From Chloroflexota bacterium (GTDB lineage Bacteria > Chloroflexota > Chloroflexia > JAMDCE01): DNA of 11,015 nucleotides. The stretch lies in the NCBI GenBank assembly GCA_023489135.1, contig JAMDCE010000213.1:1-11015 (forward strand), given 5' to 3'. Below the pieces are notes generated by a model that was not told the origin of the DNA, searched no databases, and was given only the letters and a program-made list of their open reading frames with translations. Of this stretch, positions 1,576 to 10,756 are shown one piece after another (position 1 is the stretch's first letter; each line of letters begins with the position of its first letter). The position numbers and the translations under genes are program-made.

Positions 1576-3843
1576 ATGGCAAAGAGTAAAAGGTCGACCA
1601 GCAAGAAGAAGACGGAGAGCAAGAAGGTTGATCTCAGGCCTATTTTGCGCCCTTTGTTGCGTCCGGAAGTCGTTGGAATGCTCTTTATCCTCCTGGCCGG
1701 CGTTTCCTTACTGTCGCTGGTGTTTCCCGGCGGTAGTTTTGGGAGCCGATGGAACGATCTCCTGCGGGCCTGCTTCGGGTGGGGAGCCTATCTTTTCCCA
1801 ATAGTGCTGGTGTGTTTTGGGCTCGGTCTCCTCTGGCAGCGATTCGAGCAGAGCTATCGATTGCGCTGGCAGGAAGCGATGGGCTGGCTTTTGCTGTTTG
1901 TCGTCTGTCTGCCCTTGCTCCAGGTTACCGCATTCGACCCGGACCCCTCCGTCAATCCAATCGGGGGTGGCTATCTGGGATACTGGCTCTATCACAGTCT
2001 GCAGGCTGCCGTGGGATGGGTAGGAGCCATTCTGATCGCCATCGCACTTGGCCTTGTCGCAATCTGCCTGGCCTTCAGCCTTACGCCGGCGAAGATCATC
2101 GTTTTTTCGCTCACGCTGGGGCACAGGATTCTGAACTTCTACAAGGGGCTCTGGTCCGCGCCCAGGAATCCCGCGGGCATCGATCCCGTGGATGTGTCCC
2201 TGGCGGAGCCCCAAGGCGAACCCGGCTGGGAGGCGGCAGGCGCTCAAAACGAAAATACTACGCCCAAGACGCAAAAAGCAAAGCAGACCTCATTCCTGTT
2301 TCAGCCACGGAGCAAGCCCAACCAGAGCTCTGTTTTCGAGCTGCCCACCATCCACGGTGATTGGCAGCTGCCTCCGGGTTCGCTGCTGAATGCTGTTACC
2401 AAGGGAGAGCTGAGCGCTGCCGATCTCAGGCAGAAGGTGAAGCTCATCGAGGATACGCTGGGCGATTTTCGGGTGCAGGCTAGAGTGGTAGAGGTGAACC
2501 AGGGCCCGACGGTGACCCAGTTCGGAGTGGAGCCCGGGTTTCACGAGACCAGAGATAGGCACGGTAACGTCATCAGACGCGAAAAAGTGAAGGTGAGCGA
2601 GATTACCTCGCTTTCCAATGACCTGGCGCTGTCGTTGTCGGCGTCGAGCCTTCGCATAGAAGCTCCTGTTCCCGGTCGCAGCGTGGTGGGGATCGAAGTG
2701 CCGAACAGCAGCACTTCGGTGGTATCCTTGCGAGAGGTTATCGAATCCGAGAAGTTCCAAAAACTGAAGGCCAAAGCCAAGTTGTCGCTAGCCTTGGGAG
2801 AGGATGTCTCGGGCAAGCCCATGGTGGCCGATATGGCCAAGATGCCGCACCTGCTGATTGCCGGCGCCACCGGCAGTGGCAAGAGCGTGTGCCTCAACTC
2901 TTTGATCGCCTGCCTGCTGCTGCACACATCTCCTGACGAGCTACGTTTCCTGATGATCGACCCCAAACGGGTGGAGCTGACTCCATTCAACGACATACCT
3001 CATCTGTTGCGTCCGGTGGTGGTGGAGGTCGAAAAGGCGGTCACCGTCCTCCAGTGGGCGGTCCACGAAATGGAGGAGCGCTACAAACAGTTCGAGGGAC
3101 ACCGGGCGCGCAACATCGACGATTACAACAAGATGATGGCTCGCGAGGAAGATGGCGAGCCGATGCCGTACATCGTCGTGGTAGTCGACGAGCTGGCCGA
3201 CTTGATGATGACGGCGCCCGAGGAGGTTGAGCGGAGCATCTGCCGGCTGGCCCAGAAGGCTCGCGCGGTGGGCATTCACCTGGTGGTCGCGACTCAGAGG
3301 CCGTCGGTGGATGTGATAACCGGTCTGATCAAGGCCAATTTCCCCACGCGCATAAGCTTCATGATGTTCTCTCAGATCGATTCTCGTACCATTCTGGATA
3401 CTCCGGGGGCTGAGAAGCTGCTGGGCCGCGGAGATATGCTCTACATGACACCCGATGCGGCCAAACCGGTGCGGCTTCAGGGGGTTTTCGTGTCGGACAA
3501 CGAGATACAGGAAATCACCTCGTACTGGAAAGCACAGGGGCCGGCGAGATACGTGGAGACACTGGTTCACGCCGAAGGCTGGTCTCCCGGCGAGAACGGG
3601 AAGGACGAGATGTACGAGAAAGCCCTTGAGATCGCTCAGTCGCACAATCGGGTGTCCACGTCTCTTCTGCAACGACGGCTGCGCATCGGATACTCGCGGG
3701 CCGCCCGCCTGGTCGATCAACTGGAAGAGGCCGGCGTGGTGGGGCCCTCGGAAGGTGGCAAGTCCAGGGAAGTTCTGCTGCGTGAAGAGGAAGACGGGCA
3801 AGAGCGCGAGCCGAGAGAAGAAGCCGAATTCGTGAACAGCTAG
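1576..3843 (+). CDS. ftsK: DNA translocase FtsK/SpoIIIE
   Basis: Membrane-anchored, septum-located DNA pump that clears chromosome ends and dimers at division; 755 residues, normal for the compact FtsK/SpoIIIE type. A lysine-rich start (KSKRSTSKKK) precedes about four membrane segments (roughly residues 33-51, 66-88, 102-118, 143-169). A short polar linker (about 200-255) follows, much shorter than in E. coli FtsK. The motor has Walker A GATGSGKS at 430-437 and Walker B YIVVVVDELADL at 532-543, then ATQRPSVDVITGLIKANFP and DSRTILD..GAEKLLGRGDML. A winged-helix gamma domain (about 677-735, including RRLRIGYSRAARLVDQLEEAGVV) would read KOPS/SRS polar sequences. The sensor-like segment reads FMMFSQIDSRT, where VSSKIDSRT is common. 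The start is 14 bases after the rnj stop with only a weak G-rich Shine-Dalgarno, which fits translation coupled to rnj. No clear terminator follows. Confidence 0.97.
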   Translation: MAKSKRSTSKKKTESKKVDLRPILRPLLRPEVVGMLFILLAGVSLLSLVFPGGSFGSRWNDLLRACFGWGAYLFPIVLVCFGLGLLWQRFEQSYRLRWQEAMGWLLLFVVCLPLLQVTAFDPDPSVNPIGGGYLGYWLYHSLQAAVGWVGAILIAIALGLVAICLAFSLTPAKIIVFSLTLGHRILNFYKGLWSAPRNPAGIDPVDVSLAEPQGEPGWEAAGAQNENTTPKTQKAKQTSFLFQPRSKPNQSSVFELPTIHGDWQLPPGSLLNAVTKGELSAADLRQKVKLIEDTLGDFRVQARVVEVNQGPTVTQFGVEPGFHETRDRHGNVIRREKVKVSEITSLSNDLALSLSASSLRIEAPVPGRSVVGIEVPNSSTSVVSLREVIESEKFQKLKAKAKLSLALGEDVSGKPMVADMAKMPHLLIAGATGSGKSVCLNSLIACLLLHTSPDELRFLMIDPKRVELTPFNDIPHLLRPVVVEVEKAVTVLQWAVHEMEERYKQFEGHRARNIDDYNKMMAREEDGEPMPYIVVVVDELADLMMTAPEEVERSICRLAQKARAVGIHLVVATQRPSVDVITGLIKANFPTRISFMMFSQIDSRTILDTPGAEKLLGRGDMLYMTPDAAKPVRLQGVFVSDNEIQEITSYWKAQGPARYVETLVHAEGWSPGENGKDEMYEKALEIAQSHNRVSTSLLQRRLRIGYSRAARLVDQLEEAGVVGPSEGGKSREVLLREEEDGQEREPREEAEFVNS

Positions 3844-3853
3844 GGCCAACTTG

Positions 3854-3882
3854 TTGACAACCAGGCGCCGCTGTAATATCAT
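3854..3882 (+). promoter_or_regulatory. Sigma70-type promoter P1 upstream of the cooS region
   Basis: TTGACA (3854-3859), a 17-base spacer and TATCAT (3877-3882), starting only 11 bases after the ftsK stop. The -35 box is perfect and the spacing ideal; the -10 box matches four of six. A transcript would begin near 3889 and run through promoter P2 into the small cysteine-rich ORF and cooS. Prediction from sequence only. Confidence 0.6.
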
Positions 3883-3932
3883 CAATATGTCGCCGCTCAG
3901 ACGGGCTATAGCAATAGTGAAATACGTTTTTC

Positions 3933-3961
3933 TTGACGGGCTTACCCGTTTGTGCTAAGAT
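3933..3961 (+). promoter_or_regulatory. Sigma70-type promoter P2 with extended -10, for the small ORF and cooS
   Basis: TTGACG (3933-3938), a 17-base spacer and TAAGAT (3956-3961), preceded by TGC, an extended -10. The expected start near 3968 would put the Shine-Dalgarno of the 56-residue ORF at the very 5' end of the mRNA. The spacer holds an inverted repeat, ACGGG-CTTA-CCCGT (3936-3949), overlapping the end of the -35 box, where a repressor would block polymerase. ACGGGCT also occurs at 3901-3907 as a direct repeat. Confidence 0.65.
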
Positions 3962-3982
3962 TCGCCGTGAGGTGATGGGACA

Positions 3983-4153
3983 ATGGCGTGCAATATCACC
4001 TGTATGTGCTTCTCGTGCGCTGCGTGCGAAGCGGAAGGCCCAGGTGGGGCTGTCAGCGAAGGGGATAGCAAGCTTCAGATCAACCTCACAAAGTGCGCCG
4101 AGGGTCCTGTCCCGGCTAGCCTTTACTCTGTGGAGGTCCACAAACCTAGTTAG
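3983..4153 (+). CDS. Small cysteine-rich protein upstream of cooS (56 residues, unknown)
   Basis: I do not recognise this protein. ATG at 3983 and TAG at 4151-4153 give 56 residues. The start has a good Shine-Dalgarno, GAGGTGAT at 3969-3976, whose GAGGTG core ends eight bases before the ATG, and promoter P2 lies just upstream. Cysteines fall at residues 3, 7, 9, 12 and 15 (C-x3-C-x-C-x2-C-x2-C) with a sixth at 38. There is no signal peptide or membrane segment, and the C-terminal half is polar. The spacing looks suited to metal or Fe-S binding. The gene ends 90 bases before cooS, so a role in CODH assembly, nickel or cluster handling, electron transfer or cysteine-sensing attenuation is possible, but all of these are inference. 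It does not look like CooT or CooJ. A competing 93-codon frame starting at TTG 3933 lies inside the promoter and has no ribosome binding site. Confidence 0.65.
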   Translation: MACNITCMCFSCAACEAEGPGGAVSEGDSKLQINLTKCAEGPVPASLYSVEVHKPS

Positions 4154-4233
4154 CTTTACTCCGAACAATATCGTGGCCGGCCGAAGACGATGGAGAATTC
4201 GGCAGCCGTGTTAGCACTGTGAATTATTGTCTG

Positions 4234-4239
4234 AAAGGA
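4234..4239 (+). promoter_or_regulatory. Ribosome binding site of cooS
   Basis: AAAGGA lies four bases before ATG 4244 and seven before ATG 4247. The better spacing to the second ATG suggests the protein may begin MASQKS rather than MMASQKS. Confidence 0.6.
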
Positions 4240-4243
4240 TAGG

Positions 4244-6211
4244 ATGATGGCGAGTCAGAAGAGCATGGACCCGACTTCGCAGTCGATGATCGAGAAGGCC
4301 CAAGAGCTTAAAATCTCCACTGCGTTCAGCCGCGCTGATGCTATGAAGCCCTGCCCAATAGGGAGATCGGGCAGTTGTTGTTCCGTGTGCTATATGGGGC
4401 CTTGCCGAATGGTGGGCAAGAACCAGGATGAGCTAATGGGCATTTGCGGCGCCAAACCGGCCACGATTGCTGCCCGTAACCTCGCTCGTGGCATTGCCGC
4501 CGGAGCTTCGGCTCACTCGGATCACGGCCGCGATATGGCCTTCACTTTGCTGGCTGCGGCCAAAGGGGAGACTCAGGGCTACGAGATCAGGGACGCCAAG
4601 AAGCTGCACTCCGTGGCGAAGTACGTTGGCGTCGGCACCGAGGGGCGCACCAAGGAAGAAATCGCCGTGGATGTGGCCAACATAATGATCGGCGCCTGGG
4701 GCCAGCAGATTGGAGAGCACCCATACATTCGGCGCGCGCCCAAGAAGCGGCAGGAGATATGGCGCAATCTGGATATTGCCCCACGCGGGGTTGATCGCGA
4801 GATCGTGGAGACGCTTCACCGGACCGGTATGGGCACCGACCAGGATCCGGAACACATCCTGTTGCACGCTCTCAGGGCGTCGATGTCCGACGGATGGCTC
4901 GGGTCAATGATCGCCACCGACGTGGGCGACATACTTTTCGGTACCCCAAACCCGGTAAGGTCCAAAGCCAACCTGGGCGTGCTGAAGGAAGACGAAGTAA
5001 ACGTAGTCGTCCACGGCCACGAGCCTCTCCTATCGGAGATGATAGTCCAGGCCTCCTACGATCCCGAGGTAATCGAATACGCTAAATCCAAGGGAGCCAA
5101 GGGCATCAACCTGGCCGGTATTTGCTGCACCGCCAACGAGGTGCTGATGCGCCAGGGCGTCCCCTCCGCCGGAAACTTCTTGAACCAGGAACTGTCGATC
5201 TTGAGCGGCGCGGTGGACGCGATGATCGTGGACGTGCAATGTGTGATGCAGGCGCTTGGCGACCTGACGCAGAAGTACCACACCAAGCTCATCACTACCT
5301 CCAAGAAGGCCAAGGTGCCCGGCGCCGTCCACATCCAGTTCGACGAGCACCAGGCGCTCTCCATAGCCAAGCTCATTCTTAGGACCGCCATCGACAATTA
5401 CCCCAACCGGGGCAAGTACGAGATCCCCGTGGGCATCAGCGACCTCGTCGCCGGGTTCTCTCACGAGTACATCAGCTACATGCTTGGCGGGGTGTATCGA
5501 GCCTCCTTCCGAGCCCTCAACGATGCCATCATAGAGGGTAGGATCAAGGGCGCCGCCGGAATCGTGGGATGCAATAACCCGCGACTGGTGCAGGATGAGG
5601 GCCATAACTATCTGGTCCGCGAGTTCCTCAAGAACGACGTGCTGGTCGTGCAGACCGGATGCGGTGCCATCGCTTCGGCCAAGCTCGGACTGCTGACGCC
5701 CGAAGCGCTGGAGGCCGCGGGACCGGGCCTGCGCGAGGTCTGCGAAGCCGTCGGGATGCCGCCGGTGATCCACCTTGGCTCTTGTGTGGACAACACGCGC
5801 ATCCTGACCATCCTGACCAACGTCGTCAATGAGGGTGGTCTGGGCGACGACATCAGCGATCTGCCCGCGGTGGGTATCGCTCCGGAATGGATGCACGAGA
5901 AGGCGTTGTCTATCGGCGCCTACTTCGTGGCCTCGGGTGCTTACGTGCTCTTCGGAGGCGATTCACCAGTGGGCAACTCCCCCGAGGTAACCAATCTGAT
6001 CAGCCAAGGCTGGGAGGAGAAGACCGGCGGCAAGCTGGAGTTCGTCAACGATTTCGAGGAGATCTTCCGCAGGTCGATGGCTCACATCGAGAAGAAGAGA
6101 GCGGCTCTCAAGCTGGGCTCGTGGGCTCCCGGCAAGTACACTCGCGCGTACATCACTCCTCAAGAGCGTGCGCGAAGGGGTGCGGCGGCCCTCGAAGAGT
6201 CGTCCAACTAG
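4244..6211 (+). CDS. cooS: Anaerobic (Ni-Fe) carbon monoxide dehydrogenase, catalytic subunit CooS
   Basis: Interconverts CO and CO2 at a Ni-Fe-S C-cluster; 655 residues, full length. Cluster D and B ligands are visible as C37, C45, C46, C49, C54 and C68 (CCSVCYMGPCR then GICGA). HSDHGRD (H91, H94) fits the histidine proton path. C-cluster ligands can all be assigned: H259 (HGHEP), C295 (GICCTANE), C333 (VQCVMQ), C443 (VGCNNPR), C473 (QTGCGA), C514 (LGSCVDNTR), plus catalytic Lys553 (HEKALSIG). The enzyme therefore looks active. No cooF, cooC, acsB, corrinoid protein or hydrogenase gene is in view, so it is either a free-standing CODH or works with partners elsewhere. Two ATG codons (4244, 4247) are possible. 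AAAGGA at 4234-4239 is spaced four bases from the first and seven from the second, slightly favouring 4247. Likely transcribed from P1/P2 together with the small cysteine-rich ORF. Confidence 0.97.
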   Translation: MMASQKSMDPTSQSMIEKAQELKISTAFSRADAMKPCPIGRSGSCCSVCYMGPCRMVGKNQDELMGICGAKPATIAARNLARGIAAGASAHSDHGRDMAFTLLAAAKGETQGYEIRDAKKLHSVAKYVGVGTEGRTKEEIAVDVANIMIGAWGQQIGEHPYIRRAPKKRQEIWRNLDIAPRGVDREIVETLHRTGMGTDQDPEHILLHALRASMSDGWLGSMIATDVGDILFGTPNPVRSKANLGVLKEDEVNVVVHGHEPLLSEMIVQASYDPEVIEYAKSKGAKGINLAGICCTANEVLMRQGVPSAGNFLNQELSILSGAVDAMIVDVQCVMQALGDLTQKYHTKLITTSKKAKVPGAVHIQFDEHQALSIAKLILRTAIDNYPNRGKYEIPVGISDLVAGFSHEYISYMLGGVYRASFRALNDAIIEGRIKGAAGIVGCNNPRLVQDEGHNYLVREFLKNDVLVVQTGCGAIASAKLGLLTPEALEAAGPGLREVCEAVGMPPVIHLGSCVDNTRILTILTNVVNEGGLGDDISDLPAVGIAPEWMHEKALSIGAYFVASGAYVLFGGDSPVGNSPEVTNLISQGWEEKTGGKLEFVNDFEEIFRRSMAHIEKKRAALKLGSWAPGKYTRAYITPQERARRGAAALEESSN

Positions 6212-9226: not shown

Positions 9227-10756
9227 CTACTCCTTGTATATCTTGACGCGGCGGTAAGGCTCCTTGCCTTCGCTCCTCGAGTTCAGATGGTACTTCTCGG
9301 CCATTTGGTGCTGAAGGCGGCGAATGTACGCGTTTTGCGGCGTAAGTTCCATGGGTTCTGACCTCGATAGCACTTGACTGATCGCCTCTTCGGTCTCCCG
9401 CAGCGCCGCCGTGGCGGGATCCTCGATGACGTCCAGATCGTAGATGCTGGCCAGGATTTGCTCCATCTGCAGGATATTGTTGGTCTTGAGCACGTAGACC
9501 GGGATGCCCGCCGCCTCCGCTTCCTTGACCGGCGCCGTCTTCTTCTTGTAGTAGTTCTTGAGCGTGAGGACCGCGTCGGCGCTGCGGAGGTCCTTGGTTA
9601 GCGTGGCGGGGACGCGCAGCTCCTTTATCGCCTGCTCCAACCGGTTCACGCTGATGCCGTAGGGGAAAAGGCGGGCGACCCTGGTGGCCACGGCCGAACG
9701 TCGCACCGGCAGACGCTCCGGCTCTGTCGGGGTTGGCTGGGCCGAGGCCGTTTTGACCTCGCCCTCCTCGTCGATATACCGAATCTGAGCCGGAATGGCG
9801 TTCCCACGCAGGATGGAGTCTACCACGGTGGCCACGTTCTCGTGAACGGCTACCTTCTCCCATCTCTGAATCTCCACTATCACGTCGAAAGTCGGCGGGG
9901 CCTTCCTCTCGAGAATGGACTTTTGAGTGCCGCGCCGGCGCGCTTCTTCGTCGCCCAGCGTCACCGTCTGTATCCCGCCCACCAGGTCTGAGAGGGTCGG
10001 GTTGAGCATCAGGTTCTCCAGCGTGTTGCCGTGGGCGGTTCCAACCAGCTGAACGCCCCGCTCGGCGATCGTTCGGGCGGCCGCAGCTTCCAGCTCCGTG
10101 CCGATCTCGTCGATGACGATTACCTCGGGCATGTGGTTCTCGACCGCCTCGATCATGACGGCGTGCTGAAGGGTGGGTGTCGGCACCTGCATCCGCCGGG
10201 CGTTGCCGATAGCCGGATGCGGAATATCCCCATCGCCGGCTATTTCGTTGGAGGTGTCTACGATCACCACTCTCTTGTGGAAGTCATCTGCCAATACCCG
10301 GGCCACTTCTCGCAGCATGGTCGTCTTCCCAACACCCGGCCGTCCCAGGAGGAGGATGCTCTTCCCAGATTCCACTATGTCGCTAATGATGCCGATGGTG
10401 CCAAAGACGGCCCTTCCCACGCGGCAGGTTACTCCCACGATTCGGCCTCTGCGGTTGCGAATAGCCGAGATGCGATGGAGCGTCCGCTCGATGCCCGCGC
10501 GGTTATCCCCACCGAACTCGCCTATGCGCGACACCAGGTACTCGATATCCTCTTCGGTTATCTCCACGGTGCTCAGGTTAGCCTCGCGGCCCGGAAAGCG
10601 CGCCTGAGGCGCCCGGCCGAGATCCATGACGACCTCCAGCAGGTTCATCCGATCCTCGAACTGCTTGATCGGGTTGCTGATGTGGGGCGGCAGCGCATCA
10701 AGAAGTGCGTCCAAATCGTCCGTTATTACCTTTTGATTCACACTATTTTTCTGCAC
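9227..10756 (-). CDS. Ycf45/SpoIIIAA-like AAA ATPase with C-terminal R3H domain
   Basis: 509-residue soluble ATPase. The N-terminal region (1-130) resembles the SpoIIIAA/Ycf45 family (ALPPHISNPIKQ, then GRIVGVTCRVGRAV). Walker A GRPGVGKT is at 138-145 and Walker B EVIVIDEIGTE at 211-221, with VGTAHGNTLENLM after it as a likely sensor segment. A charged linker with a proline-rich patch (about 335-355) leads to a second conserved region (about 355-445). A C-terminal R3H single-stranded nucleic-acid-binding domain follows, with its R-x3-H motif at R479-H483. The family occurs in cyanobacteria, plastids and other bacteria; its exact job is unsettled, with RNA or ssDNA handling likely. It starts at GTG 10756; AAGGAG eight bases upstream supports this. 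tmk follows ten bases on. The segment 10284-10396, covering the Walker A region, is the true copy of the inverted duplicate at the contig end. Confidence 0.9.
   Translation of the reverse strand: MQKNSVNQKVITDDLDALLDALPPHISNPIKQFEDRMNLLEVVMDLGRAPQARFPGREANLSTVEITEEDIEYLVSRIGEFGGDNRAGIERTLHRISAIRNRRGRIVGVTCRVGRAVFGTIGIISDIVESGKSILLLGRPGVGKTTMLREVARVLADDFHKRVVIVDTSNEIAGDGDIPHPAIGNARRMQVPTPTLQHAVMIEAVENHMPEVIVIDEIGTELEAAAARTIAERGVQLVGTAHGNTLENLMLNPTLSDLVGGIQTVTLGDEEARRRGTQKSILERKAPPTFDVIVEIQRWEKVAVHENVATVVDSILRGNAIPAQIRYIDEEGEVKTASAQPTPTEPERLPVRRSAVATRVARLFPYGISVNRLEQAIKELRVPATLTKDLRSADAVLTLKNYYKKKTAPVKEAEAAGIPVYVLKTNNILQMEQILASIYDLDVIEDPATAALRETEEAISQVLSRSEPMELTPQNAYIRRLQHQMAEKYHLNSRSEGKEPYRRVKIYKE

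Follow-up and report, generated by a model that had tools for sequence, protein, structure and literature searches.

The locus upstream of cooS

We studied a stretch of 11,015 bases from a Chloroflexota contig (the window, that is, the whole stretch analysed), in which genes were named for RNase J, FtsK, the catalytic subunit of anaerobic Ni-CO dehydrogenase (CODH; cooS), a lipoprotein-like protein, asd, dTMP kinase and a SpoIIIAA-like ATPase. The cooS gene was complete: its product matched the NCBIfam equivalog TIGR01702 with 592.7 bits (cut-off 478), and its residues 14-600 aligned with the solved CODH 6t7j_B, including the N-terminal cysteine motif, the HGH region and the downstream cysteines, which we take to be the cluster ligands. 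None of the named genes was for CooC, CooT or CooJ, in agreement with an initial annotation of the window that had seen no such accessory gene. The last 113 bases of the contig (10903-11015) were a 100% identical inverted copy of positions 10284-10396; the likeliest origin is an artefact of assembly or amplification by fold-back at the contig end.

Directly upstream of cooS lies a short ORF (Table 1) with the product MACNITCMCFSCAACEAEGPGGAVSEGDSKLQINLTKCAEGPVPASLYSVEVHKPS, whose cysteines occupy residues 3, 7, 9, 12 and 15 (C-x3-C-x-C-x2-C-x2-C) and residue 38. The initial annotation had drawn attention to this spacing and its sixth Cys, to a Shine-Dalgarno sequence at good distance, to an extended -10 promoter just upstream and to the 90 bases between the end of the ORF and a complete cooS; translation and coordinates bore out this description. 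The chance of an open frame of 56 codons was about 7% in random stretches with the composition of the ORF region, and longer frames overlapped the ORF on both strands (93 aa on the positive, 217 aa on the negative), so that openness alone argues only weakly for a gene; it is the sequence homology to ferredoxins (see below) that indicates that the ORF is, or was, one. A protein search of the catalogue with the ORF alone gave no candidates, and the ORF itself was also absent from the results; it therefore seems not to have been called as a protein there, whereas the window cooS was (P0002). Pfam had no family for the ORF.

Table 1 Features of the window from the first promoter-like site to the end of cooS
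Feature	Positions	Strand	Remarks
P1, promoter-like TTGACA-17-TATCAT	3854..3882	+	Consensus match; putative function
P2, promoter-like TTGACG-17-TAAGAT, extended -10 (TG before -10)	3933..3961	+	Scan for promoter-like sites
Shine-Dalgarno-like GAGGTGA	3969..3975	+	7 nt 5' of ATG; from the sequence
ORF of 56 codons	3983..4153	+	Degenerate clostridial-type 2[4Fe-4S] ferredoxin
cooS, anaerobic Ni-CODH catalytic subunit, complete	4244..6211	+	NCBIfam; alignment to 6t7j_B

Related cooS loci and the ferredoxin family

The identity of the ORF was solved by reading the DNA upstream of related cooS genes. Matches similar to cooS were present in 17 of 121 genomes (E 0.001) and in 25 of 400 genomes (E 1e-220). 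The 46 rows of cooS places corresponded to 37 distinct ones, or 36 without L034, where the cooS match begins at the contig edge, and 35 when the window was left out as well. A small ferredoxin gene stood directly upstream of cooS at two of these 35 other places (L002 and L039), and a gene for a larger Fe-S protein at one (L031). L002 is a contig of 7,261 bases from a Chloroflexi MAG (genome G002), with a cooS 79% identical to that of the window and, at the place of the window ORF, an intact gene for a 2[4Fe-4S] ferredoxin of 56 aa. Both stretches share the gene order downstream, i.e., cooS, the lipoprotein-like gene and asd on one strand and the genes for dTMP kinase and the SpoIIIAA-like ATPase on the other, with identities of 48% (lipoprotein-like), 74% (asd), 55% (tmk) and 72% (ATPase); in the 0.8 kb available upstream of the L002 ferredoxin, neither FtsK nor RNase J of the window was found. 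A cooS 90% identical to that of the window (P0003) is known as a protein only; the DNA comparison of the ORF was with L002, across cooS genes of 79% identity. At L039 (genome G032) the ferredoxin was intact and slightly longer, its frame ending 146 bases 5' of a cooS cut by the contig end. The closest other cooS copies, L001 (81%) and L003 (79%), had no ferredoxin gene upstream, and the pairing of the two genes is therefore not general; a homologue upstream of related cooS genes, to which the initial annotation had tied its reading, exists at L002 and L039 and is missing at L001 and L003. Note that genome G002 had four cooS-like matches (L002, L003, L017 and L018), two of them about 79% identical to the window cooS, and that the cooS-scored stretches of L010 and L014 hold one in-frame stop each (TAA and TAG, respectively), probably the terminal stop codon since the match extends to query residue 653.

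The scan for promoter-like sites found two, P1 and P2, against a mean of 0.4 in shuffled sequences, P1 being the better match. Both could be aligned between the window and L002; TGCTAAGA of P2 was also present just upstream of the intact L002 ferredoxin, and TGCTATAC stood upstream of the intact ferredoxin at L039. A P1-like site preceded cooS in L002; L001 and L003, which lack an intervening ferredoxin gene, had one a short distance before cooS as well, and the sequence TTGACAA...TAT(C/T)ATCA recurred before cooS copies with and without that gene. This recurrence suggests that the P1-type site may be the old promoter of cooS; in the window and in L002, a ferredoxin sequence with its own promoter-like site sits between it and cooS. 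No terminator-like sites were found in positions 3700-4500, the leader RNA had an ordinary fold (z 0.26; 112 of 200 shuffles did as well) and no Rfam family matched; these results lend no support to a leader or riboswitch. The gap between ORF and cooS had little in common with its L002 equivalent, 25 of 186 alignment columns being matches.

The ORF aligned with the L002 ferredoxin without gaps over the full 56 residues (45% identity). Catalogue relatives were collected with a two-sequence alignment of the window ORF and the L002 protein, which gave 96 ferredoxins, all of them listed; an HMM of these relatives, from which the window was left out, matched the ORF with 39.5 bits (E 3.9e-11). The NCBIfam model NF058577 (FdxA_fam) matched residues 1-40 with 35.3 bits (E 9.9e-9), under its cut-off of 65, whereas the L002 ferredoxin reached 81.6 bits. 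Six NCBIfam models in all matched the ORF, four of them weakly (E above 0.01), and all are for ferredoxin-type or Fe-S proteins; a protein of the CooC, CooT or CooJ type was rejected as a candidate, as neither these models nor Pfam related the ORF to a family of such function. The best solved match was the ferredoxin chain E of PDB 9g03 (E 0.00012, residues 1-41), which is also the best small-ferredoxin match of the L002 protein, second overall behind a polyferredoxin. Judging from molecule names alone, 9g03 is also among the entries that contain a beta subunit of CODH/ACS, as would suit a ferredoxin acting with CODH. Family-model and PDB matches of the ORF fell mainly within residues 1-46.

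These matches identify the ORF, on sequence grounds, as a homologue of the small clostridial-type 2[4Fe-4S] ferredoxins (solved as 1fdn, 1fca and 1clf; Pfam Fer4). It has their length and MAxxI start and retains C9-C12-C15, P20, G27, I33 and the fifth ligand C38, and it shares a VE..KP end with the L002 ferredoxin. Unlike them, it has ligands 19, 41, 44 and 48 and P49 replaced, carries two extra cysteines, scores under the FdxA_fam cut-off and has a fold predicted with low confidence only. CooF, the ferredoxin-like partner of CooS, is another Fe-S protein whose gene adjoins cooS; it is larger than a two-cluster ferredoxin of 56 aa and has more clusters, whereas the ORF has 56 codons and relatives with two clusters. 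Fe-S protein genes are described as frequent in CODH operons of several clades (PMC13056359). Paper searches covering the gene context of CODH in Chloroflexi, ferredoxins that are degenerate or have lost ligands, and entry 9g03 turned up no report of this locus.

Ligand loss and rates of change

The ORF keeps four of the eight ligand cysteines (9, 12, 15 and 38) and has Gly, Gly, Pro and Tyr at positions 19, 41, 44 and 48; the additional cysteines are residues 3 and 7. It consequently lacks the two C-x2-C-x2-C-x3-C-P motifs that hold the eight ligands. All eight were kept in 95 of the 96 catalogue relatives, the L002 ferredoxin included, in a sample collected by word matches to the intact L002 protein or the window, a procedure that is biased towards intact ferredoxins and may have missed other degenerate copies. 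The initial annotation had named freely varying cysteines as a sign against its reading, and this applies in part, ligands being lost in the window and conserved in nearly all of those relatives. Under the usual assignment, the ligands of cluster I are C9, C12, C15 and C48 and those of cluster II C38, C41, C44 and C19, which leaves the ORF with three of the former and one of the latter. AlphaFold, run on the same 47 sequences, gave the window ORF a mean pLDDT of 49.1 and a pTM of 0.30 as compared with 91.6 and 0.66 for the L002 ferredoxin, a low score that is no proof of an absent fold. An otherwise ordinary small ferredoxin at L044 (1501-1656, genome G021), on a different contig from the cooS match L022, carries Asp where the second motif should have its second ligand (KCTDDGEC) and possibly holds a labile-iron or three-iron cluster.

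The ORF has changed fast at positions that the family conserves and at codon positions 1 and 2, while the neighbouring cooS evolves at a normal pace. Among 95 outgroups, 22 positions are conserved in 90% or more; the window retains 11 of these and L002 retains 21 (outgroup minimum 16, median 22). In relative-rate comparisons, changes unique to the window numbered 16 and those unique to L002 four for the ferredoxin (medians over 95 outgroups), as compared with 41 and 38 for cooS (medians over 113 of the 120 listed cooS matches, the seven nearest being left out). Differences between window and L002 at codon positions 1, 2 and 3 were 0.41, 0.39 and 0.52 in the ferredoxin and 0.18, 0.11 and 0.49 in cooS. 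The two genes thus differed at positions 1 and 2 taken together (45/112 vs 185/1308, Fisher p 1.5e-10) and were alike at third positions (29/56 vs 321/654, p 0.78).

Assigned to branches, the window-only changes in the ferredoxin were spread over codon positions (25/78 at positions 1 and 2, 10/24 at position 3, p 0.46), and the L002-only changes were concentrated at position 3 (11/64 and 10/24, p 0.024); the direct comparison of both branches at positions 1 and 2 was borderline (p 0.053). For the window branch, a branch codon model over the whole ORF rejected neither neutrality (2dlnL 3.29) nor equal constraint (1.38) and, for codons 41-56 alone, favoured a separate rate (2dlnL 4.45); this model was saturated at synonymous sites and counts as evidence neither way. 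Simulations of neutral drift from the L002 gene, under a model without indels, left 182 of 1000 runs free of stops when measured at 25 identical residues of 56, which is the identity observed, and 254 and 356 when measured at 32 and 38, respectively.

Decay, repurposing and other explanations

The ORF belongs, in degraded form, to a very well known family, and the cooS next to it is complete. We consider it probable that it is a ferredoxin gene in decay, which has lost its electron-carrier function and been left between P1/P2 and cooS. The common ancestor of the window and L002 organisms would have had a small two-cluster ferredoxin gene just upstream of cooS, co-transcribed with it, whose product probably served that CO dehydrogenase as electron donor or acceptor. 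Selection on this ferredoxin would then have relaxed in the lineage of the window organism, with replacement of half of the cluster cysteines and of other conserved residues. With these gone, the product can hardly hold cluster II and is without the fourth ligand of cluster I, and most likely it no longer works as a ferredoxin; cooS would now use another carrier, and P1 and P2 may have been kept because they still drive cooS. Of the functions proposed in the initial annotation, that of a small electron carrier is consequently right as to ancestry, given the 2[4Fe-4S] ferredoxin homology and the intact gene at two related cooS loci; it does not hold as to novelty and, with three of the four cluster II ligands among the losses, probably not as to present function.

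Against decay stands the frame itself, open over 56 codons with its start and with Shine-Dalgarno-like and promoter-like sequences in place. The unlike gene content of the window and L002 upstream of the ferredoxin is also to be set against it. As the stop-free drift runs were a minority even with indels left out of the model, neutral decay since the split from L002 would more often have broken the frame; either relaxation began well after that split, or some constraint remains. The latter would fit a ferredoxin that is still made and selected and has given up cluster II, binding a single cluster, [4Fe-4S] or [3Fe-4S], or else a metal ion through C9, C12 and C15 with C7, C3 or C38, or with an open site, perhaps for CooS. 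The open frame without net indel, its conserved start, ribosome site and promoter-like site, the minority of simulated frames that stay open, and the three retained ligands of motif 1, all presumably of cluster I, with two cysteines gained nearby, speak for this possibility. We nevertheless regard it as unlikely: the window is identical to L002 at 11 of 22 conserved and 14 of 34 variable positions (p 0.59), so that both classes changed alike, codon position 3 changes only a little faster than positions 1 and 2, the new Cys pattern appeared in no relative found (catalogue searches, 96 relatives) and the fold prediction was poor. Somewhat more doubtful still is a specific remodelling into a protein with one site-differentiated or three-iron cluster, or with a metal site formed by C3/C7/C9/C12/C15/C38, serving CODH in a role other than electron transfer.

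The remaining explanations are all very improbable. The initial annotation had suggested a new CODH accessory protein for nickel delivery or maturation, of a family not described before, and the position before cooS together with the lack of a recognised accessory gene among the named genes of the window would suit it; the full-length ferredoxin alignment accounts for the sequence and for most of its Cys spacing, however, and every family model that matched is of ferredoxin type or for another Fe-S protein, which leaves this proposal without support. The same annotation's cysteine-availability sensor, a leader peptide attenuating cooS, took its appeal from a Cys-rich N-terminus near the start of a short ORF that precedes an enzyme with many Fe-S cysteines. 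It is scarcely credible in view of the RNA results given above and the dissimilar gap before cooS, and four of the six cysteines occupy ligand positions of ferredoxins. The possibility that errors of sequencing or assembly have altered an intact ferredoxin gene deserves as little credit: the evidence is a single contig with an inverted duplicate at its far end, but that artefact is 6 kb from the ORF, and 74 of 168 bases differ from L002, spread over the whole ORF without a frameshift.

With the ferredoxin homology, a misleading candidate for a new CODH accessory protein drops out, and what is seen instead is the pairing of a small ferredoxin with cooS in a few related genomes. If the protein had been remodelled, a ferredoxin would have given up one of its clusters next to its own enzyme, which would be unusual. 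As a gene apparently decaying in one genome, the ferredoxin bears mildly on how freely CO dehydrogenases may change their electron-carrier partners.
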